DNA from: a virus
Strand: one strand, 5' to 3'
DNA length: 36,036 bases
IMG/VR virus record: IMGVR_UViG_3300039098_000080
Location: 1 to 36,036 of that record
Every line of letters starts with the position of its first letter. Position 1 is the stretch's first letter. The position numbers and the translations under genes are program-made. Shown piece after piece: positions 5,664 to 33,065 of this stretch. The notes beneath the pieces were generated by a model. It saw nothing but the letters and a program-made list of their open reading frames with translations, was not told where the DNA came from and searched no databases.

Positions 5664-6374
5664 TTAGTTCGTAGCTTCCAACCGGAAAACTTTGGCGAGG
5701 TTCGTTAAGCCCTTTGGGGTAACGAGAACCTGTTCAATGACCTTTTCCCTGCCATCAGATGTGCAGGTAGTTGTTACCTTGTGATAAAGAACGCCTTGTT
5801 GGATTCTTTCCTGATAGGCGAGCCAGCCTTTTCCACCAGGCCTGCGATATATCCACTGGTTGGCGGACATCCAGTCAAACAGGTCTTTTATTCGTGGTAG
5901 CTGTAAGGACTTGGCAGTGTCCGTGATACATGTGAGGCCGTCAGCACTAGCTATCTTGTCGAACGCCTCAACAGTTGGAGTCTGCTTTTCAAGCCTTGCT
6001 TCCAGCTTGATTACTTTTTCAGTATAAGTAAGAAGAATCCCCCGCATCGCTTCGGGGTCGCTCAGGATCTCTACTGGATCACGGTGCTTGATTTGTTCTT
6101 CAAGATCTATCCACCGGTCGATAACTTTGGCGCGCCGAACAGCGTCATAGCCAGTGACGAGTGTCATCGTTGATTTGAAATCAAGGGAGTACATCGGGCG
6201 ATTTTCGCCTTTTTTATCTTTGTATTTAACGAGCTCAACTTTGGGCCCGTTGATAGCTCCTTCCGCTAACAGCACTCTTATATCGCGCATTACATTTTTG
6301 TGAGCCTTGCCAGTCAACCCTGCAATCTCAATGCTGGTCATTCTCTGTTCTGTTTGGACAGTTAAATCTTTCAC
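5664..6374 (-). CDS. Rha/KilAC-type phage antirepressor-like regulator
   Basis: The protein has 236 residues in two parts. The N-terminal ~95 residues match the phage Rha regulatory domain (LTGKAHKNVMRDIR, then RPMYSLDFKSTMTLVTGYD, then RAKVIDRWIDLEEQ). The C-terminal ~110 residues match the KilAC/antirepressor DNA-binding domain (LQLPRIKDLFDWMSANQWIY, GKGWLAYQERIQQG). Such proteins interfere with repressor control or replication and are toxic in some hosts. GTG at 6374 is chosen because GGAGGT sits four to five bases before it; a GTG four codons upstream overlaps that site. The 160-base upstream region carries direct repeats. With the RHH gene before it, this resembles an Arc/Ant anti-immunity module. 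Confidence 0.85.
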   Translation of the reverse strand: MKDLTVQTEQRMTSIEIAGLTGKAHKNVMRDIRVLLAEGAINGPKVELVKYKDKKGENRPMYSLDFKSTMTLVTGYDAVRRAKVIDRWIDLEEQIKHRDPVEILSDPEAMRGILLTYTEKVIKLEARLEKQTPTVEAFDKIASADGLTCITDTAKSLQLPRIKDLFDWMSANQWIYRRPGGKGWLAYQERIQQGVLYHKVTTTCTSDGREKVIEQVLVTPKGLTNLAKVFRLEATN

Positions 6375-6538
6375 GATTACCTCCACGTAGTGTGGTCTAT
6401 TTGCACTATTTCAAAGTGTGTTTTGTTCATGTCGTTTTTTTGACTAAGCGTTTGTAACATCCCGGAATTGTTGATGTATACCTTTGTCTACTTTTGTCTA
6501 CTTTTGGATACATAGGTATACCTGACAGGGCCAAAAAA
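6375..6538. promoter_or_regulatory. Putative control region of the antirepressor-like gene
   Basis: This non-coding gap lies between the RHH gene and the Rha/KilAC gene. It holds two exact tandem 10-base copies of TTTGTCTACT (6483-6492, 6493-6502), flanked by an inverted repeat (GTATACCT at 6476-6483 and AGGTATAC at 6514-6521). The second arm is part of the palindrome AGGTATACCT. Tandem half-sites flanked by palindromes suit a dimer-of-dimers RHH repressor. Operator function is inferred; no convincing -35/-10 pair could be fixed by eye. Confidence 0.45.
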
Positions 6539-9142: not shown

Positions 9143-10147
9143 ATGTCTATCCGCCCTCACCCAACAAAAGGCCCTGGCTGGTGGTACATCAATTACCGAC
9201 CAGAAGGCCGCAAAGGGAAGCAGAAAAACGTAGCCGTTGAAGGCACCGAAGCAGAGGCCATGGTTGCCGAAACCAGACTGCGCCGTCAGAACCGTGGCCG
9301 GAAAATTTCCGCATTCCCGCAGCTCAAAGAAGCAGCGCCAGACTTTATCACCTCCTACGAGCTCGACCATCAGCCAGCAGGCACGGATCGCACCAGGCGT
9401 AGCCTCAAGATTCTGCTCAAGTTTTTTGGCAAAGAGCTTTTTACCAGCATCACTCATGGCCAGGTAGACCTCTACAAAGAGAAACGCCTCAAAGAAGGGG
9501 TAGTACCATCAACTATCAATAAAGAGCTGGCCGCACTCTCATCCTTTTGCAAATGGGGAGCGGAAAGAGGCTTCTGTCAGCCAGTCAAAATAAAAAGATT
9601 TCCACCAAAGCTCACCCGGGCACCCTTCCCCAACGTACCAAGCCAGATAGAAATGTTAGCTTTGATAAACTCCATGGATTGGCCAAAATGCGGTTTATTC
9701 GCGTGCCTGTACCTGGGGGGACTCAGGTCTGCAGAGGCCATTAATTTAAAGGCTGAAACGATTTTAATGCAACAGGGTGTTATGCTGGTGATAGGAAAAG
9801 GAAACAAGGAAAGAGTGGTACCAATTATTCCGAGCTTAAAGCCGATCCTGGAAAAACGGCTAAAAGAAATACAAGCCGGGCTCATGTGGCCAAAGAAAGA
9901 CGGTACCCCTTGCAAGGATCTCCGCTCAGCTATCAAGTGGGCTAGCAAAAGAGCCGGTATCACCAGGCACATCAACCCCCATTTATTCCGTCATGCCTTT
10001 GGAGTACATACCACAGAATCGGGAGTAAACCTGCGCCAGCTGCAGCAGGTAATGGGGCACTCCAGTTCCACAACCACAGAGCTCTATTCCCGCTTAGCTG
10101 CAGAGGCACTTAAGAAAGAACTTGGAAAATTCAGCACACCTGGTTAA
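9143..10147 (+). CDS. int: Tyrosine-recombinase phage integrase
   Basis: This 334-residue protein has an N-terminal arm-binding/AP2-like region, a SAM-like core-binding domain (about 65-155) and a C-terminal catalytic domain. The active-site residues are visible: R195 in LGGLRSAEA, a beta-hairpin lysine in GKGNKERVVP, H280 and R283 in HLFRH, H306 in MGHSS, and nucleophile Y315 in TELYSRL. It starts three bases after the nuclease stop and lies next to the tRNA-derived attachment site, as expected for integration and excision of this phage. No dedicated excisionase is adjacent; the AlpA-like protein at 33621-33803 is a candidate. Confidence 0.96.
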   Translation: MSIRPHPTKGPGWWYINYRPEGRKGKQKNVAVEGTEAEAMVAETRLRRQNRGRKISAFPQLKEAAPDFITSYELDHQPAGTDRTRRSLKILLKFFGKELFTSITHGQVDLYKEKRLKEGVVPSTINKELAALSSFCKWGAERGFCQPVKIKRFPPKLTRAPFPNVPSQIEMLALINSMDWPKCGLFACLYLGGLRSAEAINLKAETILMQQGVMLVIGKGNKERVVPIIPSLKPILEKRLKEIQAGLMWPKKDGTPCKDLRSAIKWASKRAGITRHINPHLFRHAFGVHTTESGVNLRQLQQVMGHSSSTTTELYSRLAAEALKKELGKFSTPG

Positions 10148-11124: not shown

Positions 11125-11432
11125 GCTATGGCCTCCAGGTCCAGGGTTTGATCCACGGTAACACTGTCCTCTGTGCGAGTAATATCTAATGACCAGCCGG
11201 TTACCATGGCCCGTGCTGCAGGGCGTCCGGTTTGCATTACTTCCACAATTTTCCCACGGCGAATAAAAGCTAATGCCGGACCAGTTCCGGTCAGCATTTT
11301 GCGGCTTGAGCAATTAGCGTCTATCTCATTGCGGCCGCGCTCTCTGGCCACGGCTTCGGTGGTTATCAGGGCGTCGGATATATCAGGCCCTGGCTTGCCT
11401 GCTGGTTGGCGTTGGACGATAACCGATATCAT
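11121..11432 (-). CDS. Hypothetical tail-region protein (103 aa)
   Basis: No family recognised. Mixed strand/helix composition with a C-terminal beta segment (MVTGWSLDITRTEDSVTVDQ). The start overlaps the stop of the previous gene (ATGA), and its own stop overlaps the next, so it is translated as part of the tail-tip block. No membrane segment. Confidence 0.6.
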   Translation of the reverse strand: MISVIVQRQPAGKPGPDISDALITTEAVARERGRNEIDANCSSRKMLTGTGPALAFIRRGKIVEVMQTGRPAARAMVTGWSLDITRTEDSVTVDQTLDLEAIA

Positions 11433-11953
11433 ACGGCCTCCAGATAGGCGACCACGGCCACAGGGTATTGCTCATCCCCTGCCAGGCTCATGGACGGTGG
11501 AATAAGTTTAAAGAGGGTAAAATTAACCGGGTAGGAAATATCCGCCATACAGGGCTCACCACCAGTGATCCACACCTGGCGCCCGTCATTCTCCAGGCCA
11601 GATCCAGCACGACCCATCCAAGATGGATGAAGATTTCCGGCGGGGATATAGGCGAGGGTTACGTCCCCGGTGCGCTCGGTACCAGTTTCGACCAGGGGAG
11701 CAGGAAAAACCTGTTGCGTGGTGATATCCCTGGAGCCGCTGCCCATATCAACCACCATGCCATCGGTGGCAATTACCTGGGTGACGCGCAGATCCGCGCC
11801 ATGGTGGAGGCGTAAGAAAACCTCTTCCCTAGGGTAAAACTGGGTTTTGACCTTGCCATCAGCATCCACGTTGAACTGATCGTCCAGCTCAAACACCGCA
11901 AACTGCTGGCTTGCAGAAACCGACTCCCCAAACTGAACCACTAAAGATTCCAT
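11429..11953 (-). CDS. Hypothetical tail-tip protein (174 aa)
   Basis: The protein is beta-rich and acidic. The N-terminus MESLVVQFGESVSASQQFAV and the FPAPLVETGTERTGDVTLAY stretch suggest a structural tail component. No family recognised. It lies five bases after the candidate hub gene and overlaps the next gene by ATGA. It could be a baseplate/hub accessory protein because it is bounded by hub and lysozyme-proximal genes. Confidence 0.62.
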   Translation of the reverse strand: MESLVVQFGESVSASQQFAVFELDDQFNVDADGKVKTQFYPREEVFLRLHHGADLRVTQVIATDGMVVDMGSGSRDITTQQVFPAPLVETGTERTGDVTLAYIPAGNLHPSWMGRAGSGLENDGRQVWITGGEPCMADISYPVNFTLFKLIPPSMSLAGDEQYPVAVVAYLEAV

Positions 11954-11958
11954 TATGC

Positions 11959-13305
11959 CTACTCCAGCACCAGTTGCAGTTGCTCGTTTTTACTATCTTG
12001 AACAAGCCACTTTTTACACTTAGTAATATAAGTAATTGCCAACAGGCTTTCACCATCAACACCGGCCTCCAGGGTGCCATCCTCATTAAAATCAACGGTG
12101 CCCAGGTCTTCATGGAGCCAATCAACCGTCACCAGGCCGTAAATCGGATATCCAGTATTGGCAGACCCGGCAACAAACTCCACCACCTCCTCTACCTGGC
12201 GGCTCTCTATACCCATTGGCTCGATAGTTACCCAAGCCCCACCAGTATGTCGCAATGTAAGGACACCGGTCCACGGTACCTGGTAACCCCGAATCCCTTT
12301 TGCTGATCCGGTCAACGCCTGCTCCTCTTGCCGCAGTGTCGATTTATCGGTGAGGCTGTCAGATACACGATACTTGTTATAGCCAGGCTTATGTTCGGTG
12401 CGCTCATCCAGGTCAAACCAGGTTAACTGGTCCACTAAGATGGAGGCAGGGGTAACTCCACTCCAACCAGGCACAGCAACCGGATACAACGCCTCCACCA
12501 GCAAGATCCCATTTGGCAAAGACTGTAACTCGGCACCTGCAGCAGCAGCCAGTTTACGGATCAGCTCCAAAGGCGTCTCATCCGCAGCAAAAAATACCCC
12601 GCCACCAATGGGCCAGTCCACCGTCTGCCAATCAATGGTAACCGCACCTGCCAACCCGGCAACAATCCCAGAGGCCATACCTGACAGCTCACCACTCACA
12701 GGTTCTGCATATGGCGCATCCAACCAGGCAGCAGCAGAAAGGGCCGTCACATCATAATCAATACCGCCATGGCGGGTGGTCCGGTCTCGGCTCTCAATGG
12801 TGAACACAAACAGCTCCCCCAGGGCGGAAACCGTCAACTCAAGACCAGGCACACAGGCCGCATAATCTCGCTCGCTCTCCACGGTAACGGTGCAGCTCAG
12901 CCATGCCAGATCGTTTTTAATACTGATAGACGAAACCCCAACCGCTACACCATCAACCGCAACCAACCCGGTACCAACGTGATCCTCATGCCATCCAGGC
13001 AGCTCGGCGCAGCCATAGACAATATCAAGGCAACCAGCCACCGGCATGCGCTCAGGCAGGCCATACACAATCTCCAGCGCACCATCCACCTTGCCACCGG
13101 AAACGGCATATACAATATCCAGCTCACCGGCCACCACCCCAGGCAACCGGTAACAGATCTCCAGCGCACCCTCCACACCCTGGGCGCATCCATACACAAT
13201 CTCCAGCTCACCGGCCACCAGAGGCGCGCACCAGTAAACTATATCCAACGAGCCAGCCACTTTGGTTGCGCAGCCGTATACTATATCCAACGCTCCATCA
13301 GGCAT
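11959..13305 (-). CDS. Candidate tail-hub protein with seven N-terminal LDIVY repeats
   Basis: This is a 448-residue protein. Residues ~3-105 hold seven degenerate units of 14-16 residues built on G-x-L-[DE]-I-V-Y (GALDIVYGC, GSLDIVYWC, GELEIVYGC, GALEICYRL, GELDIVYAV, GALEIVYGL, GCLDIVYGC). The remainder (about 115-448) is beta-rich and resembles tail-hub/baseplate proteins in overall style (VFTIESRDRTTRHGGIDYDV, then ETPLELIRKLAAAAGAELQ), but I cannot name a family. GGAGG eight bases upstream supports the start. The repeat block could form a beta-solenoid or strand stack that oligomerises or binds the receptor or tape measure. The repeats are seen; hub function is inferred from position. 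Confidence 0.65.
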   Translation of the reverse strand: MPDGALDIVYGCATKVAGSLDIVYWCAPLVAGELEIVYGCAQGVEGALEICYRLPGVVAGELDIVYAVSGGKVDGALEIVYGLPERMPVAGCLDIVYGCAELPGWHEDHVGTGLVAVDGVAVGVSSISIKNDLAWLSCTVTVESERDYAACVPGLELTVSALGELFVFTIESRDRTTRHGGIDYDVTALSAAAWLDAPYAEPVSGELSGMASGIVAGLAGAVTIDWQTVDWPIGGGVFFAADETPLELIRKLAAAAGAELQSLPNGILLVEALYPVAVPGWSGVTPASILVDQLTWFDLDERTEHKPGYNKYRVSDSLTDKSTLRQEEQALTGSAKGIRGYQVPWTGVLTLRHTGGAWVTIEPMGIESRQVEEVVEFVAGSANTGYPIYGLVTVDWLHEDLGTVDFNEDGTLEAGVDGESLLAITYITKCKKWLVQDSKNEQLQLVLE

Positions 13306-13354: not shown

Positions 13355-14854
13355 CTATACCTTGAGCTTGCACAGTTTCACCCATCCTGGACCTGTTTGG
13401 TGCACGCTAATTGCAGCAACGGGCCACGCAGCCTGCACCGTTTCCACAAGGTTAGCCACAGCCGCGCCCACTTTTCTTGAAAGAGCAGCGTCCGAGGCGT
13501 TAATGATTGCTGTCGCTGATGCAGGCTGACCCATAGTTAAACCAGGGACGTCTGAGTATCTGGTGACTACCACAGCTGGCGCAATTTTATTTTCCATCAC
13601 GAAACTATACTCACACACCCCCGGCCAATAGCTGACGGGCGACATGATGCTGTACATATTACCCAGGGAGCTATAATCCCCGCCCACGTACAAATTGTAA
13701 CAGCCATTGTTGTCACACCCTGGAGCTCCATTACAGTCGCTCATGTTGAAAATCTGGTACCGTTGATAAGTCCCTGCTAGAAAAACGAAGAATAGCTCTC
13801 CCTCGCTGTGTACCGCTGTCCATAATCCTGTTGCCTCCCCAAACTGAGATGTTAAGTCAACAAAAGTCCCTATGGCCTTATACTCTGCTCCTGCTGTTAT
13901 CTGTACCGCCCAATCAAAACTGTCTATGGCGCTGTAACTGTACAAACCGAACACGTCAGTTCCGTAAGCGTAGGATTTACCTTGCTCTATAAACGTATAC
14001 GGAAAAGACCCAGGGTAAGTGTGCACTATCACGGTAGTGGCAGCCTTTAGGGTAAAACGTATTTTACCTGCTAAGGTGCCAAGCACCCCATCATATACGT
14101 CATAGCCGTAACCAAAACCTGCCGAATAGTTTGTCTCAGCTACGCTATTAGCGGTATATGTACCAAAACTAGACCAAGTGGTTTGTTGCGCCAAGTGCGC
14201 GGCACAATCCTCGGGAAAGGAACCCACTTGGTTTAGTGTTTCCCGGTAGTACGTTGTTGGTTCAGCGATGTAAACAGATTCGTTCACGACGTTTGCTGTC
14301 TGCGTACAGGCCGATTTCATCGGGGTAATTGTACCGGACACACGCTCCTTTACTGTCCAGTCTGCTACGCCACTATCAGGCTGCGTTTTATCGGCTGACA
14401 TGGGAACTGTTATCCCCTGGTCAGAATACTCAAAATTATACGCAAACCAGGCCAACCAGGCGGCGTCTCTAATGCCAGGGTTTGCTGCAGGGTTAGCCGG
14501 ACTTCCAGCCTTGCCCACAAACGTGTTCATATCCAATGCTTTGCCAGCGGCCATATCAAATATCAGCTCGTAAGCAGTCCCTTTTTTATAAACATAGACA
14601 AATGTCCGCAGGTACTCAGTAGGGCCATCAACCAGCATGCCCACCCGCACCTTATAGTCACAGCCGCCGCCCTCTTGGACCAACCCCACTTTGACCACCT
14701 TGCGGCCCTGGTCGTCGACACTCACCTCCATGCTCTCGGCAGTATCTGGCACGATAACCTCCAGCTCGCACCGGGTCTCCTGCGGGCAGTCTGCGGGCTC
14801 GGACGGCAACCGCTTTAGAGGCAGGCTGACTATTTTTTTGTAGCGAGTTATCAT
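13355..14854 (-). CDS. Large hypothetical tail-tip protein (499 aa)
   Basis: No family recognised. The middle is rich in Tyr, Gly, Ser and Thr (YSAGFGYGYDVYDGVLG, YGTDVFGLYSYSAID), as in adhesive or fibre-like structural proteins. A Cys-rich segment lies near residues 370-395 (SDCNGAPGCDNNGCYN). The C-terminal ~70 residues look like a small alpha/beta domain. There is no signal peptide, unlike the fibre genes further upstream in transcription. The start overlaps the previous stop (ATGA). Probably a virion tail component. Confidence 0.65.
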   Translation of the reverse strand: MITRYKKIVSLPLKRLPSEPADCPQETRCELEVIVPDTAESMEVSVDDQGRKVVKVGLVQEGGGCDYKVRVGMLVDGPTEYLRTFVYVYKKGTAYELIFDMAAGKALDMNTFVGKAGSPANPAANPGIRDAAWLAWFAYNFEYSDQGITVPMSADKTQPDSGVADWTVKERVSGTITPMKSACTQTANVVNESVYIAEPTTYYRETLNQVGSFPEDCAAHLAQQTTWSSFGTYTANSVAETNYSAGFGYGYDVYDGVLGTLAGKIRFTLKAATTVIVHTYPGSFPYTFIEQGKSYAYGTDVFGLYSYSAIDSFDWAVQITAGAEYKAIGTFVDLTSQFGEATGLWTAVHSEGELFFVFLAGTYQRYQIFNMSDCNGAPGCDNNGCYNLYVGGDYSSLGNMYSIMSPVSYWPGVCEYSFVMENKIAPAVVVTRYSDVPGLTMGQPASATAIINASDAALSRKVGAAVANLVETVQAAWPVAAISVHQTGPGWVKLCKLKV

Positions 14855-16103: not shown

Positions 16104-16439
16104 CTACACTTTAGGAGAGGTAATAAGTGTTTGCTTAAGCCCAGTGCGTTTACCTGTAAATTGGCCAAGGGAAAGCAACCCGGGAAAGAGCAGCGCTAAC
16201 GGTTGCAGCATCTCCCAAATATCAAGCGGTGCTCTCGTTGTAAGCTGACTAACCGCTAAAATATCATTAAATGTCGTGGCCGCCTCCAGGGCCTTGGCCA
16301 CAATCAGTTGCTGCACAGATGGATCAACAGGGCGCGTGTTTTGATAGGTGATATAGCCAACCATAACCAACACTGCCACCACCATCACTCCCTGCAAAAT
16401 ACCTTCTAACGACTGCCAACTTGGTTTTAAATTGTCCAC
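16104..16439 (-). CDS. Small membrane protein, possible holin (111 aa)
   Basis: One strong transmembrane helix (about 12-32, GVMVVAVLVMVGYITYQ) and a second hydrophobic stretch (about 75-93, LQPLALLFPGLLSLG) are separated by a polar helix, with a basic C-terminus. The GTG start is chosen because AGGAG sits seven bases before it. The ORF is open much further upstream, but only through the lipoprotein gene. Together with the 95-residue protein it is the best lysis-pore candidate, though the lysozyme is about 5 kb away. Confidence 0.6.
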   Translation of the reverse strand: MDNLKPSWQSLEGILQGVMVVAVLVMVGYITYQNTRPVDPSVQQLIVAKALEAATTFNDILAVSQLTTRAPLDIWEMLQPLALLFPGLLSLGQFTGKRTGLKQTLITSPKV

Positions 16440-16449
16440 TTTAAATCTC

Positions 16450-17166
16450 CTATGGTTGCACACTGCATTTGCCATCAATATAGGATTGCCCAGAGCTACA
16501 ACCCACGATCCCGTTGAACCATTCGCTACTGGAGGATTCTTCTTCTCCGCCTGCAGCTGGCTCATTAACAGGCGCATATGGGCCTTGATACTGCCCCTCC
16601 ATACCAAACTCCTGCCCTGCACCAGCTTTATTGTAACTCTGAATTACAGGGCTATTGCTATACGTAGGGGTATCGGTCATACTTGTGACCATTCCGGTAA
16701 ATCGATCTATACCGAAAGCAATGGTCCCAAATTTAAACGCGGTACCAAAAATATTTTCAGCCGTTTTCCATCCTGGATGTACACTTGGGTCCATGGAGAG
16801 TTTAGCAATAAAAGCAGTGCTTGGCGCTGGGGTGTGCTTGGCGTAATCAACGGTAGGCTCGTCCCACGAAAATGATTGCCCGTTAACAACCACGGTACGC
16901 TTAACCATCTTCATTTTTATTTCGGTGCCAGCTTTAGCAACAGCATCAAAATACCCTAGCAATATTTGCACATTTGCATTTTTGGTTATCATTTCCTTGG
17001 CTGTAGAGGTGTCGGTGATGTAGCCAAGCCGCTTTGTGTTTTGCTTGGACACACCGTCCACGGTCTCTGGCAGTTGCTCCAAAACCTCCAGCGGGATAGG
17101 TGCCATTGTCCCGCTACACCCACCCAACAACAAGAGCAATGCGATTACTGCGACTGATCGTGTCAT
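16450..17166 (-). CDS. Predicted lipoprotein in the tail cluster (238 aa)
   Basis: A signal sequence ends in the lipobox LGGC, with C17 as the lipidation site, so the mature protein should be anchored to a membrane. The rest is unrecognised: soluble mixed alpha/beta, then a Gly/Glu/Ser-rich stretch (about 200-215, GGEEESSSSEWF) and a terminal two-cysteine segment (GCSSGQSYIDGKC). It follows three genes whose products also carry signal peptides. It could be a superinfection-exclusion lipoprotein or an anchor for exported fibres. It is too long for an ordinary outer-membrane spanin. Confidence 0.72.
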   Translation of the reverse strand: MTRSVAVIALLLLLGGCSGTMAPIPLEVLEQLPETVDGVSKQNTKRLGYITDTSTAKEMITKNANVQILLGYFDAVAKAGTEIKMKMVKRTVVVNGQSFSWDEPTVDYAKHTPAPSTAFIAKLSMDPSVHPGWKTAENIFGTAFKFGTIAFGIDRFTGMVTSMTDTPTYSNSPVIQSYNKAGAGQEFGMEGQYQGPYAPVNEPAAGGEEESSSSEWFNGIVGCSSGQSYIDGKCSVQP

Positions 17167-17176
17167 AATGAACTCA

Positions 17177-18595
17177 CTATAAAGTTTGGATAGGCGTACC
17201 GAGCCAATTGTTCTGGCAAGTACTCTCTGTTACGGTTACCGATCCGCCACCGGCAACATCCGAAGCTGTCACATCAGATTGACAAAGGGTGATATTGGAT
17301 GAGTTGTTATAGGTCGTGTACACCTTGTCTCCGTCCGACCTGTTGGTGCTGATCTCGTTATGAGAAAAAACTATATCAGAATACGCAGGGTCATTACTCG
17401 TCACAACGTAGCCGCCAGTATTGCCACCAGTATGCTCTAAAATATTGCTATATATATCTACATTGGAAACCATACCATCGTAGCTATAGAGTTTGATTAC
17501 ATCGCCAGAGGACTTGAATATATTGTTGTAAATGAGGATATCAGCAGTCGCGTTTGGTGGATCATCACCAAGACTGACAATGGAAGTGTCGGCATCTGAC
17601 CCGGAAGCGTCAACATTGTTACTGTGGATGATATGTCCGGTGGAGCCTGCATCATTAGTGTTGGATGATCTGGCACGGAAAACAGCTACACTGTTGCCAG
17701 AGCCGTTTTGAGAGGTGACGGTGATGTCATTATCATGAATGTTCCAGTTGTCAGTACCGGAATCCATCAAGAAGATTCGGCCATGATCACCAGCAAAGTT
17801 AATAGTTTCGTTATAGATTTCGTGACCGTCAGCAGTAGGGCTCCAGGCTGCATATACGTTTACAGCCCGACTGTCTGCCTGTACGGTAATGGTGTTGTCA
17901 TGGATAGTGTAGTTGTACCCTACGATGTTAAAAACATAGGGGTATCGCCCATCACTTGGCAGGGTATGGTTGTGAACCAGTACGGTGTTGTGATGTATGT
18001 CCCATGTACCTGTACAGTAAAATGCGTAAAACCTATCCGCGCCACTTAGGTCAAAGTTGTTATTATACAACTCATTCCCTACGCCAGAACTTTCGATTCT
18101 GATACCGTATGCCCTTGTCGAATACCCTGCATGAGCAACAACGTTAAAATCGTTGTCGTGGATCGTGTAACCGTATCCAGAACCACGGATGGCGTACACA
18201 TAGGTATTCCCACTGTACGCACCTTGGTTAAAAGTCACCCCGTTGACCAGTGCTCCACTGGTGTTGCCAACATTGTAATAAATAGCATTGCCAGCACCAC
18301 TCTGAGCATAAGCAATACTCTTGTTGTTACCCCATATCTTGACACCATTTGCAGTGATAGTAATGGCGCTTCCTGACGCAGCAGAAAGGTTTTCGCTTAA
18401 ATAATAGTCGCCAGCAGAGTTGATAGTTTTAGGGACATCAGCTTGGGCAATCGCAATAGCCCCTTCCGGCGGGGCTGTATCTCCTGGCTCTGCACCGCCA
18501 CCGGCCGAATAGGTGAAAGCACCGCTACCGGTAAAACTAGCCCAGGCTGTAGCTGCAACGAGCCAAGAGAGTAAGAGTAGGGTTGTAGTTCTCAT
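17177..18595 (-). CDS. Exported parallel beta-helix protein (tailspike-like)
   Basis: The protein has 472 residues. A Sec signal peptide (1-20, ending AWA) precedes a right-handed beta-helix. Repeated rungs such as YTIHDNDF, NELYNNNF, WDIHHNTV, YTIHDNTI and WNIHDNDI are spaced about 25-30 residues apart, as in PbH1/NosD or pectate-lyase folds. This fold is typical of tailspikes and polysaccharide lyases. A signal peptide is not expected on a virion protein. Either the exported form acts on surface polysaccharide of the host, or fibre maturation here passes through the periplasm. The fold call is strong; enzymatic activity is unknown. Confidence 0.8.
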   Translation of the reverse strand: MRTTTLLLLSWLVAATAWASFTGSGAFTYSAGGGAEPGDTAPPEGAIAIAQADVPKTINSAGDYYLSENLSAASGSAITITANGVKIWGNNKSIAYAQSGAGNAIYYNVGNTSGALVNGVTFNQGAYSGNTYVYAIRGSGYGYTIHDNDFNVVAHAGYSTRAYGIRIESSGVGNELYNNNFDLSGADRFYAFYCTGTWDIHHNTVLVHNHTLPSDGRYPYVFNIVGYNYTIHDNTITVQADSRAVNVYAAWSPTADGHEIYNETINFAGDHGRIFLMDSGTDNWNIHDNDITVTSQNGSGNSVAVFRARSSNTNDAGSTGHIIHSNNVDASGSDADTSIVSLGDDPPNATADILIYNNIFKSSGDVIKLYSYDGMVSNVDIYSNILEHTGGNTGGYVVTSNDPAYSDIVFSHNEISTNRSDGDKVYTTYNNSSNITLCQSDVTASDVAGGGSVTVTESTCQNNWLGTPIQTL

Positions 18596-18598
18596 CTG

Positions 18599-19294
18599 CT
18601 ACCTCTCCACGTATTGCAGGATAATGCCAAGCCCTGTTGTTTCAGATTCACCGTGTCCTGTAATATCAATAGGTGGTAACCCGCCCACCCAAGCATCAGA
18701 GAAAAACTTAATTTTATCCCCTGGAGTGCTATAGACACCAAGGTTACTGGCTTGTGTAAACTCTCCACCAACACATATTTGGATATCATCACCTATGTCA
18801 GCGTCAAGGCTCTCTCCACTCTCTACTATTAATGCGCCACTGACGTAATCAAGCCACGATCCGGTAGGCATGTAGGAGAGTTCTTGTGTTTTAGCAACAA
18901 GGAGCTTGTTAACATATACCAACCCGTACACATTCATTTCCGGTGTCCAGGTGGTTACCTTATGATAAGGGCTTAACGCTTCCAGGGTTATGTTCACCTC
19001 AGGCGCAACTGTCCTGCAATATACTCTATCAGCACTGGAGCCATAGCCAGTGGTTGGGGTTTGAGTAGAGGTACCGGACGCATCGGAAGGCGTCCCAATC
19101 CAAGCCGTATCGCCACCACCTTCTACGACATCGAGTAGCGCCCATGTCCCATCATAACGCTTTTTCGTAACATCAAGCCAAGCTGAGCCTGTGTAGACTT
19201 TCGTTTGGTCATAAACCAAATCGACAGCGCCAGTATCTACCTGGGCGGAGCAAAGAACGGGGAAAAGGAGCAGGGCAATTAATATTCGAAACAT
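18599..19294 (-). CDS. Exported fibre-associated protein (231 aa)
   Basis: The protein starts MFRILIALLLFPVLCSAQ, a clear Sec signal with probable cleavage after CSA. The mature part is beta-rich (VDLVYDQTKVYTGSAWLDVT, VYCRTVAPEVNITLEALS). The ATG at 19294 follows GGGGG by five bases and lies inside the 3' end of the fibre gene (16-base overlap). No family recognised. The LVYDQTKVYTGSAWLDV segment resembles short tail-fibre attachment motifs. It may be a fibre tip or adaptor. Shares export signals with its neighbours. Confidence 0.65.
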   Translation of the reverse strand: MFRILIALLLFPVLCSAQVDTGAVDLVYDQTKVYTGSAWLDVTKKRYDGTWALLDVVEGGGDTAWIGTPSDASGTSTQTPTTGYGSSADRVYCRTVAPEVNITLEALSPYHKVTTWTPEMNVYGLVYVNKLLVAKTQELSYMPTGSWLDYVSGALIVESGESLDADIGDDIQICVGGEFTQASNLGVYSTPGDKIKFFSDAWVGGLPPIDITGHGESETTGLGIILQYVER

Positions 19295-21210
19295 AAATCC
19301 CCCGTTGCCATTCCGGTTGCGGTAGCGCAATCATCTAAAATAAATATTTCAACCGTCCCCGAATTGGCTGTGACAGTTATCTCGCTATCGCGTGCGATTG
19401 TTGATGCTATATGTGCATCTGCTACAGTCCCCGTGGAGATATTGTCAGCATTAATTCCTGTGCCAACTTTGCCACCACTCAAACTGCCGTCTGCAAGGTC
19501 AGTAAGATTTGCATTAAGATCTTGCTTAGATACCCAACTGCACACCGTTGCATCTCTTGCAACACCGTCAGAAAAAGTTACGGAGGTGGGAGCAGCACAA
19601 TTTAAAACCTGTCCCGCTGCGGGGTCAACTATTGGGAGCAAAAGGACCAGGTCGTTATCATTAGATGCAGGGGAGCCAAAACCAACATAATTTGTACCGT
19701 TGTCGCTATCCTCGGAAAATGCCACAACTTGCCCGCCCAGTGCGGTAGGATTAACGGAAAATGATTTACCAATAACGTCGCCATCTGCATCAACGATAAA
19801 GCCACCTGTGCCAGCAGATATGGTTCCCAATGTTACGTTATCGCTCGGTTGCACCGCGCTATTGAGCAACACCTTGTCACTGGCTGGCATTACCCCGGCT
19901 GCACTGGTGGTGGCTGCTGGTATATCGGTATTGGTACCGCTGCTGGAGGTTACCAGTACGCTGTCTGCATCTGGAGAATTGCCCAGGTTAGCCCCGGTGG
20001 CCTCGTTAGCAACCTCCTCTATGGCGTCCTGCACGTTGGTTGCGGCAATGGTTCCTGCTGGGGTAAAGGGTACCTCAGTTGCTGCCTGATCAGCCGTTGC
20101 CCCATCCTCTATCGCTGCCAGCCTGGTAGATGCGGTGGTACTAAAAGATACTTTTGCAGTATTGGCGGCCACGGACGCATTGGCAGCAGTAGCACTCTCA
20201 AAATCGGAGATGGTAGCAGCAACCTGGGTACCGATGTGGCTGGCCCTGGCATTGCTGGCACCAGTGCCGATCCCTGCCAATTTTGTTTTTTCTAAGTCGG
20301 TAAACCCGTTAGTGTCGGCCTCGGACTCGTAAGCGGTTTTAATTTCTGCGCCGCTCTGATCGTCGGTTGCACCTTCACCCACCCCGGCCAGTTTGCCTTG
20401 CATGGCCGCAGTCATCACCCCTGCGTCGTCTGCCGTGGCAGCAGGCAAGGTGGTATCCGCACCAGCTGAACTGGTAATGGTAACGGTGGTGGTGGTGGTG
20501 GAGCTCCCCAGATTAGTGGAGCCGGAGCCGTCGTCAAATTCACAGTCAACGCTGCCGTCCTCGTACACCTTACGGATCGATTGACCCACCGGGCACTCAG
20601 CAGAGACACGGCGCTGGGTATAGGTTGGGTCAATAGCGAGTGGTACCGTGCCGCTGGTGCCGCCGCCGGTTAAACCGGTGGAAGCGGTTACCCCCTCAAT
20701 ATCTCCGGACCCGGTGGCCGCATCCTCACAGATAGCGGTGCCGTCTACGTTGATGCCGGTCATCACTTGGCCGGGGCAGGTGCCGGTCACTCTGGCCTGT
20801 TTGGCAGTGAGCACTGTATCCAGGGCGGAGTTATCGGTGGGATTGCCGGATAACTCGGCAAAGGTGCTGGCCCCATCGCCGGTAAACGCGGTCCATTGGT
20901 TGACGTTGGTGGCCGGATCATCGGTACCACTCGCGCCACCAGCCTTGGCCACATACAACTTGCCTAGATACGAGCACATGGCATGCTCTGCATAGGAGCC
21001 GCCCGAAACCCATACCTCAACCCCCATCAAGGCCAGCTTGGCATCGTGACCAGCATCAGCGCTGTACAACTCGGTAAAGTTGGCGTTTATCTTTGTTTTT
21101 TGGCCACTCCACAGGATACCTGCCCCAGACTCAATAGTCTGCTTGGCAGCTGTGGCTATACCCACCGGCACAAGCAGCAACAGGAGGCCAATCAGTATTT
21201 TTTTTGTCAT
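19279..21210 (-). CDS. Tail-fibre-like protein with an N-terminal signal peptide (643 aa)
   Basis: Residues 1-22 (MTKKILIGLLLLLVPVGIAT, then AA) form a typical Sec signal. The body has fibre hallmarks: Gly/Thr/Ser-rich stretches, TGLTGGGTSG, repeated GKLAGVGEGATDDQSGAEI and LAGIGTGA / LAAIEDGATADQAATEV segments, and DDAGVMTAA motifs as in side-tail-fibre proteins. A short motif before the middle (GGSYAEHAMCSYLGKLYVAK) resembles carbohydrate-binding modules. The start forms TGATG with the 44-residue gene. A signal peptide on a phage fibre is unusual; no adhesin autotransporter domain is visible. Confidence 0.78.
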   Translation of the reverse strand: MTKKILIGLLLLLVPVGIATAAKQTIESGAGILWSGQKTKINANFTELYSADAGHDAKLALMGVEVWVSGGSYAEHAMCSYLGKLYVAKAGGASGTDDPATNVNQWTAFTGDGASTFAELSGNPTDNSALDTVLTAKQARVTGTCPGQVMTGINVDGTAICEDAATGSGDIEGVTASTGLTGGGTSGTVPLAIDPTYTQRRVSAECPVGQSIRKVYEDGSVDCEFDDGSGSTNLGSSTTTTTVTITSSAGADTTLPAATADDAGVMTAAMQGKLAGVGEGATDDQSGAEIKTAYESEADTNGFTDLEKTKLAGIGTGASNARASHIGTQVAATISDFESATAANASVAANTAKVSFSTTASTRLAAIEDGATADQAATEVPFTPAGTIAATNVQDAIEEVANEATGANLGNSPDADSVLVTSSSGTNTDIPAATTSAAGVMPASDKVLLNSAVQPSDNVTLGTISAGTGGFIVDADGDVIGKSFSVNPTALGGQVVAFSEDSDNGTNYVGFGSPASNDNDLVLLLPIVDPAAGQVLNCAAPTSVTFSDGVARDATVCSWVSKQDLNANLTDLADGSLSGGKVGTGINADNISTGTVADAHIASTIARDSEITVTANSGTVEIFILDDCATATGMATGDLCFEY

Positions 21211-21344
21211 CAATCCATCTCCAAGTCGTCTGTCATTTCCAGATCGTCCAGCATCTCCAGGGTACCGCTATCCTCTTCGCTGGGTGCCGTCATCGGCAGA
21301 GCAAAGACACCGCCAAACGGATCAGCGCAGATATCGGCAAACAT
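21210..21344 (-). CDS. Very small acidic protein before the fibre gene (44 aa)
   Basis: The protein reads MFADICADPFGGVFALPMTA followed by an acidic tail with DDLEMTDDLEMD. It is linked at both ends: TAATG with the upstream gene and TGATG with the fibre gene, with GGAG about nine bases before its ATG. Such double coupling supports real translation. No family recognised; it may be a tail-assembly adaptor or a pure coupling leader. Confidence 0.6.
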   Translation of the reverse strand: MFADICADPFGGVFALPMTAPSEEDSGTLEMLDDLEMTDDLEMD

Positions 21345-21640
21345 TACGCATACTCCACGCCAAAGGCGTTGCCAGTGGAGAGCGGTTTTTTTATCCGCAT
21401 CAGCCCGGTATACGGCACGCCCCGTGCGTTGTTGCCCGCGTCCAAGGTATAGGCTGCGCCACCAGACATGATAGAGGTCCAGTGACTATCGTTATCTACA
21501 TCTGGCGCCAGCTGTGTTGGTTGCTCCAGGGGCACGGTCTCTGCTCCCAGGGTGCCGATAATGCGGAGAGTCCCGCCCCGGTTATCCCGGCGGACATGGA
21601 GCAGCTGGTTGACTGCCGCCTGTGTTGGTTCTATGCGCAT
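21344..21640 (-). CDS. Hypothetical tail protein (98 aa)
   Basis: Small and beta-rich: LRIIGTLGAETVPLEQPTQL, then DSHWTSIMSGGAAYTLD, ending in FGVEYA. No family recognised. It lies between the 331-residue tail protein and the fibre block, and ends in TAATG overlapping the 44-residue gene. It may be a small surface or adaptor protein of the tail tip. Confidence 0.6.
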   Translation of the reverse strand: MRIEPTQAAVNQLLHVRRDNRGGTLRIIGTLGAETVPLEQPTQLAPDVDNDSHWTSIMSGGAAYTLDAGNNARGVPYTGLMRIKKPLSTGNAFGVEYA

Positions 21641-32312: not shown

Positions 32313-33065
32313 TCAAACGACTTGTTCATGTTTATACGCAGCGGTGCTTAAATACTCCCATGCGTTTCTAACCACCACCGGTACCTGTCCGTTGCCAATG
32401 GCTTTAGTCCGCTCCACCCTATCGGCCACCCCTGAACCGCTTCCAGCATTTCTGGAGACGGTGCCCATCCAGTTTTCAAGCACCGCTCTGTAGTCCCTTT
32501 CCGGTAACGCTCTTTTGTCCGCGACAGACCCCACCCACTTTTTCCCATGCTCGCTGTCGGGGTAGGCCAGTAGGAACATCCGGTCACGTGTTTGTGGTGC
32601 ACCAAACATGCACGCCGAAAACACATCCCATTCGCAAGCGTACCCGAGCGAGGCCAACCCAAAGAGAATTTCTCCAAAGTATGGGTGAGTAATGATTTTT
32701 GCGGAGTTTTCCAACAGCGCTCCCCGGGGTCGAACAATGCGAATGCACTCAAGCGTTTCTGGCCACCTGTTGCGTTCGTCATTTTGTCCAAGCCTGAAAC
32801 CTCCTGCAGCGAATGGCTGGCAGGGGAATCCAGCTGTAATGATATCAACCATTCCCGAATATGCGCCGGCGTACCCTTCCTCAATGAAAGTTTTGATATC
32901 GCCGAAAATTGGCGCGTCATCGAGGAGTCCGTCAATAACTCTCGCCCTGATTTGCTTCTGGCAATGGTCGTTCCGCTCGACATATCCAACGGGTGTAAAT
33001 CCAAGTAGCTTTGTTCCAAGCAACCCCCCTCCAGCTCCAGTGAACAGGCTCAACTCTGTAATCAT
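32313..33065 (-). CDS. DNA cytosine-C5 methyltransferase
   Basis: This compact 250-residue enzyme has its key motifs visible: motif I LSLFTGAGGGLLG (5-17), motif IV GFPCQPFAAGG with catalytic Cys82, motif VI as ENS (119-121; ENV is usual), motif VIII QTRDR (158-162), and motif X AIGNGQVPVVV. The region between VIII and X that reads the DNA target is only about 50 residues. It uses S-adenosylmethionine to methylate cytosine, probably to protect phage DNA from host restriction. No partner endonuclease is adjacent. It sits in a cassette between large terminase and portal. Confidence 0.93.
   Translation of the reverse strand: MITELSLFTGAGGGLLGTKLLGFTPVGYVERNDHCQKQIRARVIDGLLDDAPIFGDIKTFIEEGYAGAYSGMVDIITAGFPCQPFAAGGFRLGQNDERNRWPETLECIRIVRPRGALLENSAKIITHPYFGEILFGLASLGYACEWDVFSACMFGAPQTRDRMFLLAYPDSEHGKKWVGSVADKRALPERDYRAVLENWMGTVSRNAGSGSGVADRVERTKAIGNGQVPVVVRNAWEYLSTAAYKHEQVV

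Follow-up and report, generated by a model that had tools for sequence, protein, structure and literature searches.

What is a tandem array of short repeats doing at the very start of a phage tail-hub protein? The question is raised by the window, a stretch of virus DNA of 36,036 nucleotides (IMG/VR record IMGVR_UViG_3300039098_000080, positions 1 to 36,036). Its hub protein, P0001, is encoded on the minus strand with a Shine-Dalgarno-like GGAGG upstream of the ATG. The features discussed here are the following.

11959-13305, minus strand: open reading frame of the hub protein P0001, 448 aa, with its ATG at 13305.
13006..13305, minus strand: seven-unit repeat array, hub protein residues about 1-100 (units in 4-99).
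12970..13005, minus strand: short linker from the array to hub domain I, about residues 101-112; the gap-free alignment of arrays stops near residue 100 and the hub fold begins near 104-113.
12709..12990, minus strand: hub domain I, about residues 106-199, with the fold common to Mu gp44, Neisseria 3d37, the pyocin R2 hub and VgrG.
11959..12708, minus strand: remainder of the hub protein, homologous to phrog_24698 / phrog_6079 tail proteins and Vibrio SIO-2-type hubs.
13355..14854, minus strand: 499-aa protein directly upstream of the hub, a candidate adhesin or tip protein by its position.
11429..11953, minus strand: 174-aa protein directly downstream of the hub; a gene of similar length follows the hub in the Vibrio SIO-2 phages and in loci L110/L111.

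The anchor leucines of the array are found at residues 6, 20, 34, 48, 62, 77 and 93, so that the Leu-to-Leu steps are 14,14,14,14,15,16. All seven units match G-x-L-[DE]-I-[VC]-Y, one of them with I-C-Y in place of I-V-Y, and this motif is absent from every other frame of the window. The lag-14 autocorrelation of the array (BLOSUM62 mean) was 0.78, compared with a maximum of 0.26 in 10,000 shuffles. Over the 9-residue core of the units, the mean nucleotide identity was 66%, and differences occurred in 57% of comparisons at third codon positions versus 23% at first and second positions. The values for these short sequences were 0.66 for pS, 0.24 for pN and 0.36 for pN/pS. Since the synonymous sites have diverged, the likeness of the units is kept at the protein level, and the data, from short sequences, support the view that these are old or fast-diverging copies held alike as protein. 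The sequence-only reading had described a seven-unit N-terminal repeat that is diverged as DNA and conserved as protein, and both points were borne out. That reading also did not recognise the block as a known motif; in agreement with this, Pfam, NCBIfam, PHROGs and PDB contain no family that describes the array. Elsewhere in the window, a 243-aa protein (18599-19330, minus strand) carries, after a signal-peptide-like start, a single GAVDLVY that resembles one unit of the hub array.

From residue ~110 to residue 448, the protein is a gp44/gp27-type baseplate hub, and the earlier designation of a tail-hub candidate is therefore supported by several kinds of comparison. Residues 155-448 match phrog_24698 and phrog_6079 (tail) with E-values of about 1e-16 to 1e-15 (E=2.7e-15 for a phrog_6079 tail protein), and Vibrio SIO-2-type proteins match P0001 at about 23-29% identity. 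Relatives with 36-37% hub identity match PF22255, the second domain of Mu gp44-like hubs, and the phrog_177 baseplate hub; the PF22255 match in the relative L113 (E=8e-6) is just under the Pfam cut-off. The profile of the group matched Mu gp44 (1wru) weakly (E=0.079). An AlphaFold model of the whole protein had a mean pLDDT of 44, with domain I mostly at 60-84. The domain I model aligned with hub and tube chains at VIA-align Z scores of 7-9.5 over 75-95 residues. The hub chains 3d37, 1wru, 9ki1_G and 6u5h aligned with residues ~106-196 of this moderately confident model at Z 7-8.8, where scores under 8 can reflect a common arrangement. These four chains start within about 20 residues of domain I. 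Because many known hubs begin at domain I, the array is an added N-terminal segment. The JBD30 baseplate hub, a Foldseek match, was set aside as a parallel; the passages on the hub in its paper describe no such repeat.

Relatives were collected from several sources. A terminase search in IMG/VR gave the two with 36-37% hub identity, which led to loci L112-L116 and then to the Desulfopila prophage L117. Further prophages were recovered by searching 395, 348 and 257 genomes around L117 and L126, and annotated phage records supplied about 17 hubs from isolated or uncultured phages. Searches for related loci with the P0001 or SIO-2 hub as query returned nothing, and the array alone, run by tblastn against phages and plasmids, gave weak matches only. 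The best of the latter lies in a Mycetohabitans plasmid and is an unrelated low-complexity array of PADVVPG. A pattern scan of IMG/VR DNA for two LDIVY-like units 14 residues apart gave seven matches in short frames, which were taken as chance. The open-access literature, when searched for repeats of 14 residues in hub or tail proteins, yielded nothing relevant.

Nearly all of the hub homologues have a periodic segment ahead of the hub; in about 30 relatives, hub proteins of diverse siphophages and prophages, it is an array with a 14-residue period, each with its own unit sequence. Examples are LDIVY in the window, LDQPW in L132, TQPY in L133, ITARH in L125, FxFDSSF in VhaS-a, FDFSSSY in SIO-2, xRYQEA in ACF1 and LIWxxxP in Shewanella 1/44; FDSSY also occurs. 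When 29 hub extensions were subjected to a uniform test, 20 had their strongest lag at 14 or 28 and 26 at 14, 28, 29 or 30, and shuffling gave P<0.05 in 27, although the sequences are not independent. The hosts include Vibrio, Shewanella, Pseudomonas, Stenotrophomonas, Acidovorax, Curvibacter, Psychrobacter, Desulfobacterota and others. Lag 28 was stronger than lag 14 in S1, MuM16, Haddon, Y8A, ACF1 and PCA1, which suggests unit pairs. The number of units varies among the arrays (4, 5, 7 or 9-10). The strongest periodicity among all hubs tested was that of L127, whose hub extension contains near-identical 29-residue repeats (RRLPWADTDAKLA...) around residues 90-180 of a 604-aa frame. In the hubs of L122, L123, L010 and L142, a second motif, ITIRFxxPYxxxTSPITIRF or YxPPxGDxIxLxL hairpins, is found beside the 14-residue array.

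The spacing of the units was examined in the Desulfobacterota group, that is, the Desulfobacterota prophages and the IMG/VR relatives around the window, where the anchors are exactly readable. Ahead of the hub, the units keep a constant spacing of (12,)14,14,14,14,15,16, with the 12-residue step present in the longer arrays. Counting back from the hub, the steps are 16, 15 and 14 in every array of the group whose last units were read (P1, which is the window protein, L112, L113, L114, L116, L117, L132, L133, L125, L126 and L136). In L138, the last three spacings total 45, which equals 14+15+16. The window array aligns over 100 columns without a gap to the last seven units of five relatives, indicating that it holds exactly the hub-proximal seven; the units upstream of the 12-residue step are absent from the window together with the head domain. 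The Vibrio group follows a separate ruler of 15,14,14,16 for five units (counted by hand), with an invariant Phe at 6, 21, 35, 49 and 65.

The sequences of the units behave differently from their spacing. Units of the same index are ~20% identical between the window and other proteins of the group, whereas units within the window are 61% identical; the means over eight proteins were 23% between and 41% within. Judged from these alignments, the units change in concert within an array while the geometry stays. Since the synonymous sites in the window have diverged, recent gene conversion alone would be insufficient, and selection for like units would account for the pattern. Such selection would in turn be explained if the units stack on each other or if all of them meet one partner. 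The sequence-only reading was correct in that the repeat is real; the general trait of this hub family, fixed spacing with freely changing units, was invisible from the window.

What precedes the array differs among the relatives. Most of the Desulfobacterota group have an N-terminal Kelch, LamG or DUF2341 domain ahead of it. In L112 these are Kelch repeats, with Kelch_4 above its cut-off and PF24681 (E=1e-7) below the family cut-off; L136 has a Laminin_G_3 head (E=8.5e-21) and L117 a DUF2341 head (E=1.4e-4, just under the cut-off). The heads of L114, L116 and L132 look LamG-like, and those of L114 and L132 reach only PHROG virion families. The hubs of L112 and L113 are 73% identical and yet their N-terminal heads are unrelated, Kelch repeats in one and a different domain in the other, which by sequence comparison marks a head swap ahead of the array. 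Arrays without a head are found in L125 and L126 (four units), in the Vibrio phages (five) and in the window (seven), where the hub protein, unlike its relatives, has no recognised adhesin domain (LamG/Kelch). In Y8A and PCA1, a gene annotated as lectin or SPRY lies just upstream of the hub or one gene away. The hub of the L133 prophage, on the reverse strand, has a LamG-like head and the array in one frame, with an in-frame TAG inside the array at about nt 370-380 of the reverse complement. The suggestion that the array binds a polymer received no direct support, as the sugar-binding-type domain of the relatives is a separate N-terminal domain which the array joins to the hub.

The gene order around the hub follows that of the SIO-2 phages: tape measure, ~115-128 aa, ~330 aa, ~300 aa, hub, ~170 aa and ~100 aa, with additional genes interrupting the row in the window. 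The 499-aa protein upstream of the hub has no match in Pfam or PHROGs, and from its position it may be an adhesin or tip protein in its own right. A group of additional genes (16104-21640, minus strand) separates the homologues of a 331-aa and a 319-aa tail gene, which are adjacent in L110 and L117. Its products with signal-peptide-like starts, unusual for tail proteins, are of 472 aa, 243 aa, 644 aa (tail-fibre-like) and 238 aa, the last with a lipobox-like LLGGC. Elsewhere in the window, genes that look like those for a cytosine methyltransferase (32313-33065, minus strand), an integrase (9143-10147, plus strand) and an antirepressor (5664-6386, minus strand) are consistent with a temperate phage.

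The fold of the array was approached by prediction and by the pattern of its residues. Two AlphaFold2 runs on the single chain placed beta-strands in each unit, albeit at low confidence (array pLDDT 28-31 and 52). Foldseek with the array model gave nothing significant; its best rows were mostly solenoids, at E of at least 0.8 and TM ~0.1 for a model with a pLDDT of 52. The array may be a beta-solenoid or an oligomerisation stack, both of which were proposed from the sequence alone. Relative to the anchor, hydrophobic residues occupy 92% of positions at -4, 92% at 0, 90% at +4 (mostly Tyr/Trp) and 79% at +6 (77 units). Hydrophobic positions alternate strictly in the Vibrio arrays. Beta structure is clearly favoured by the hydrophobic moments of the Vibrio and L114 arrays, whereas in some others, that of the window among them, it is not, and the ACF1 and Y8A units look helix-compatible by eye. 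In the published consensus for the triple beta-spiral, positions c, e, g, k and m are hydrophobic and j is Pro/Gly (PMC3150272). When the anchor Leu is taken as g, hydrophobic residues make up 92% at c, 57% at e, 92% at g, 90% at k and 79% at m in the Desulfobacterota-group arrays, and Pro occurs most often at j (25/77 units). The window array has Gly at e and Val at j. A trimeric beta arm, whatever its exact fold may be, is taken as likely.

We propose that the array is a structural arm or platform of fixed geometry, an N-terminal extension of the gp44/gp27-type hub that carries receptor-binding heads, and we hold this to be somewhat more probable than its negation. Each 14-residue unit would form a short stretch of beta strand whose alternate residues (V/L, L, Y/W, V/I/L/C) point inward. 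Stacked or strung out, these segments would make up a beta structure with a set geometry, in which the two other chains of the hub trimer most likely take part, and this arm would serve to hold receptor-binding heads on the hub. The Kelch, LamG or DUF2341 domain that most close relatives have fused ahead of the array would be such a head. In the window, the array starts at residue 4 with no fused head, and one is presumably supplied in trans by another protein, possibly the 499-aa product of the upstream gene. Given that the array of related phages ties a swappable sugar-binding-type head to the hub, that of the window phage probably serves host recognition as a built-in arm. Several observations count against this reading: the low confidence of the models, the lack of a significant Foldseek match, the hydrophobic moments that do not favour beta structure in some arrays, and the absence of a recognised domain in the upstream 499-aa protein. 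Moreover, the window and Vibrio arrays are head-less, so that the array cannot be a linker alone, and its rigid spacing would suit a compact domain no less than an arm. A bolder version, a fibre-forming trimeric beta arm with the conserved geometry 12,14,14,14,14,15,16, units evolving in concert and exchangeable heads plugged on, would be a previously undescribed module; we advance it tentatively, at rather less than even chances.

Several other explanations were weighed against the arm. In one, which amounts to a specific fold for the arm, three hub chains form a trimeric fibre shaft, either a triple beta-spiral or a YadA-like beta-roll. Hubs of the gp44/gp27 type are trimers, and the Desulfobacterota-group arrays on average follow the published consensus at c, e, g, k and m with Pro at j (PMC3150272). 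However, the period is 14 rather than 15 or more, the window departs from the consensus at e and j, the same hydrophobic pattern suits any alternating strand, and solved shafts have no sequence match to the array. We regard this fold as unlikely, if a serious candidate. Slightly less likely still is an assembly or docking scaffold, in which the units are short beta motifs that capture a neighbouring tail-tip protein by strand addition, a row of sockets organising the tip. The existence of head-less arrays (window, L125, L126 and Vibrio) agrees with it, and the high identity of the window units despite diverged synonymous sites, together with their concerted change, fits one shared co-evolving partner. 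On the other hand, copy number varies from 4 to 9-10 without a matching partner identified, and spacing fixed right up to the hub suggests a self-contained structure.

The array could itself be the receptor-binding part, its units binding a repetitive cell-surface polymer and their turnover shifting specificity. Units that differ strongly between phages and are alike within one phage would be expected of such a role, and head-less arrays would suit it too. Nevertheless, we consider it improbable, given that relatives have separate, recognised lectin-type or Kelch heads ahead of the array, that conservation within the unit falls on the positions presumed to be buried and that the spacing is rigid. 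Finally, slippage is a frequent origin of tandem arrays, and the repeat could in principle be a recent, neutral and functionless expansion. We give this almost no credence: it is already contradicted by synonymous divergence near saturation, with a pN/pS of 0.36, and by spacing kept across proteins whose units are only ~20% identical.

If the arm reading is true, it accounts for the way in which many siphophages attach receptor-binding heads straight to the hub, and a 14-residue period before a gp44-type hub becomes a signature for host-range determinants in unannotated phages and prophages. The array would also be a clean case of repeat spacing conserved while unit sequence evolves in concert.

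The array may be compared with several known systems. Hubs of the Mu gp44 / T4 gp27 type (PF22255, 1wru, 9ki1) have hub domains I and II, which the window protein has after residue ~106, and their genes take the same place after the tape measure protein; these hubs open with domain I, with neither a 14-residue array nor an N-terminal head. The phrog_24698/6079 members VhaS-a, S1, ACF1 and S144 have hubs that are homologous to that of the window and also carry an N-terminal array with a 14-residue period, which PHROGs neither name nor describe. The window array has its own unit sequence, and the PHROG match begins only at residue 155-205. The evolved Dit and Tal proteins of siphophages bear carbohydrate-binding modules, and likewise place sugar-binding-type domains on a structural protein of the tail tip. 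In the relatives described here, by contrast, a repeat array connects the hub to a head at the extreme N-terminus, and the window protein has no head. Triple beta-spiral shafts (adenovirus fibre and reovirus sigma1), compared through their published consensus, are built from short beta repeats with hydrophobic c/e/g/k/m positions and a Pro/Gly turn, which the hub arrays may resemble. PDB sequence searches with the array gave nothing meaningful, including no match to solved fibre shafts. The hub array differs from these shafts in its period of 14, with fixed exceptions of 12, 15 and 16, and in its place N-terminal to a tail hub.
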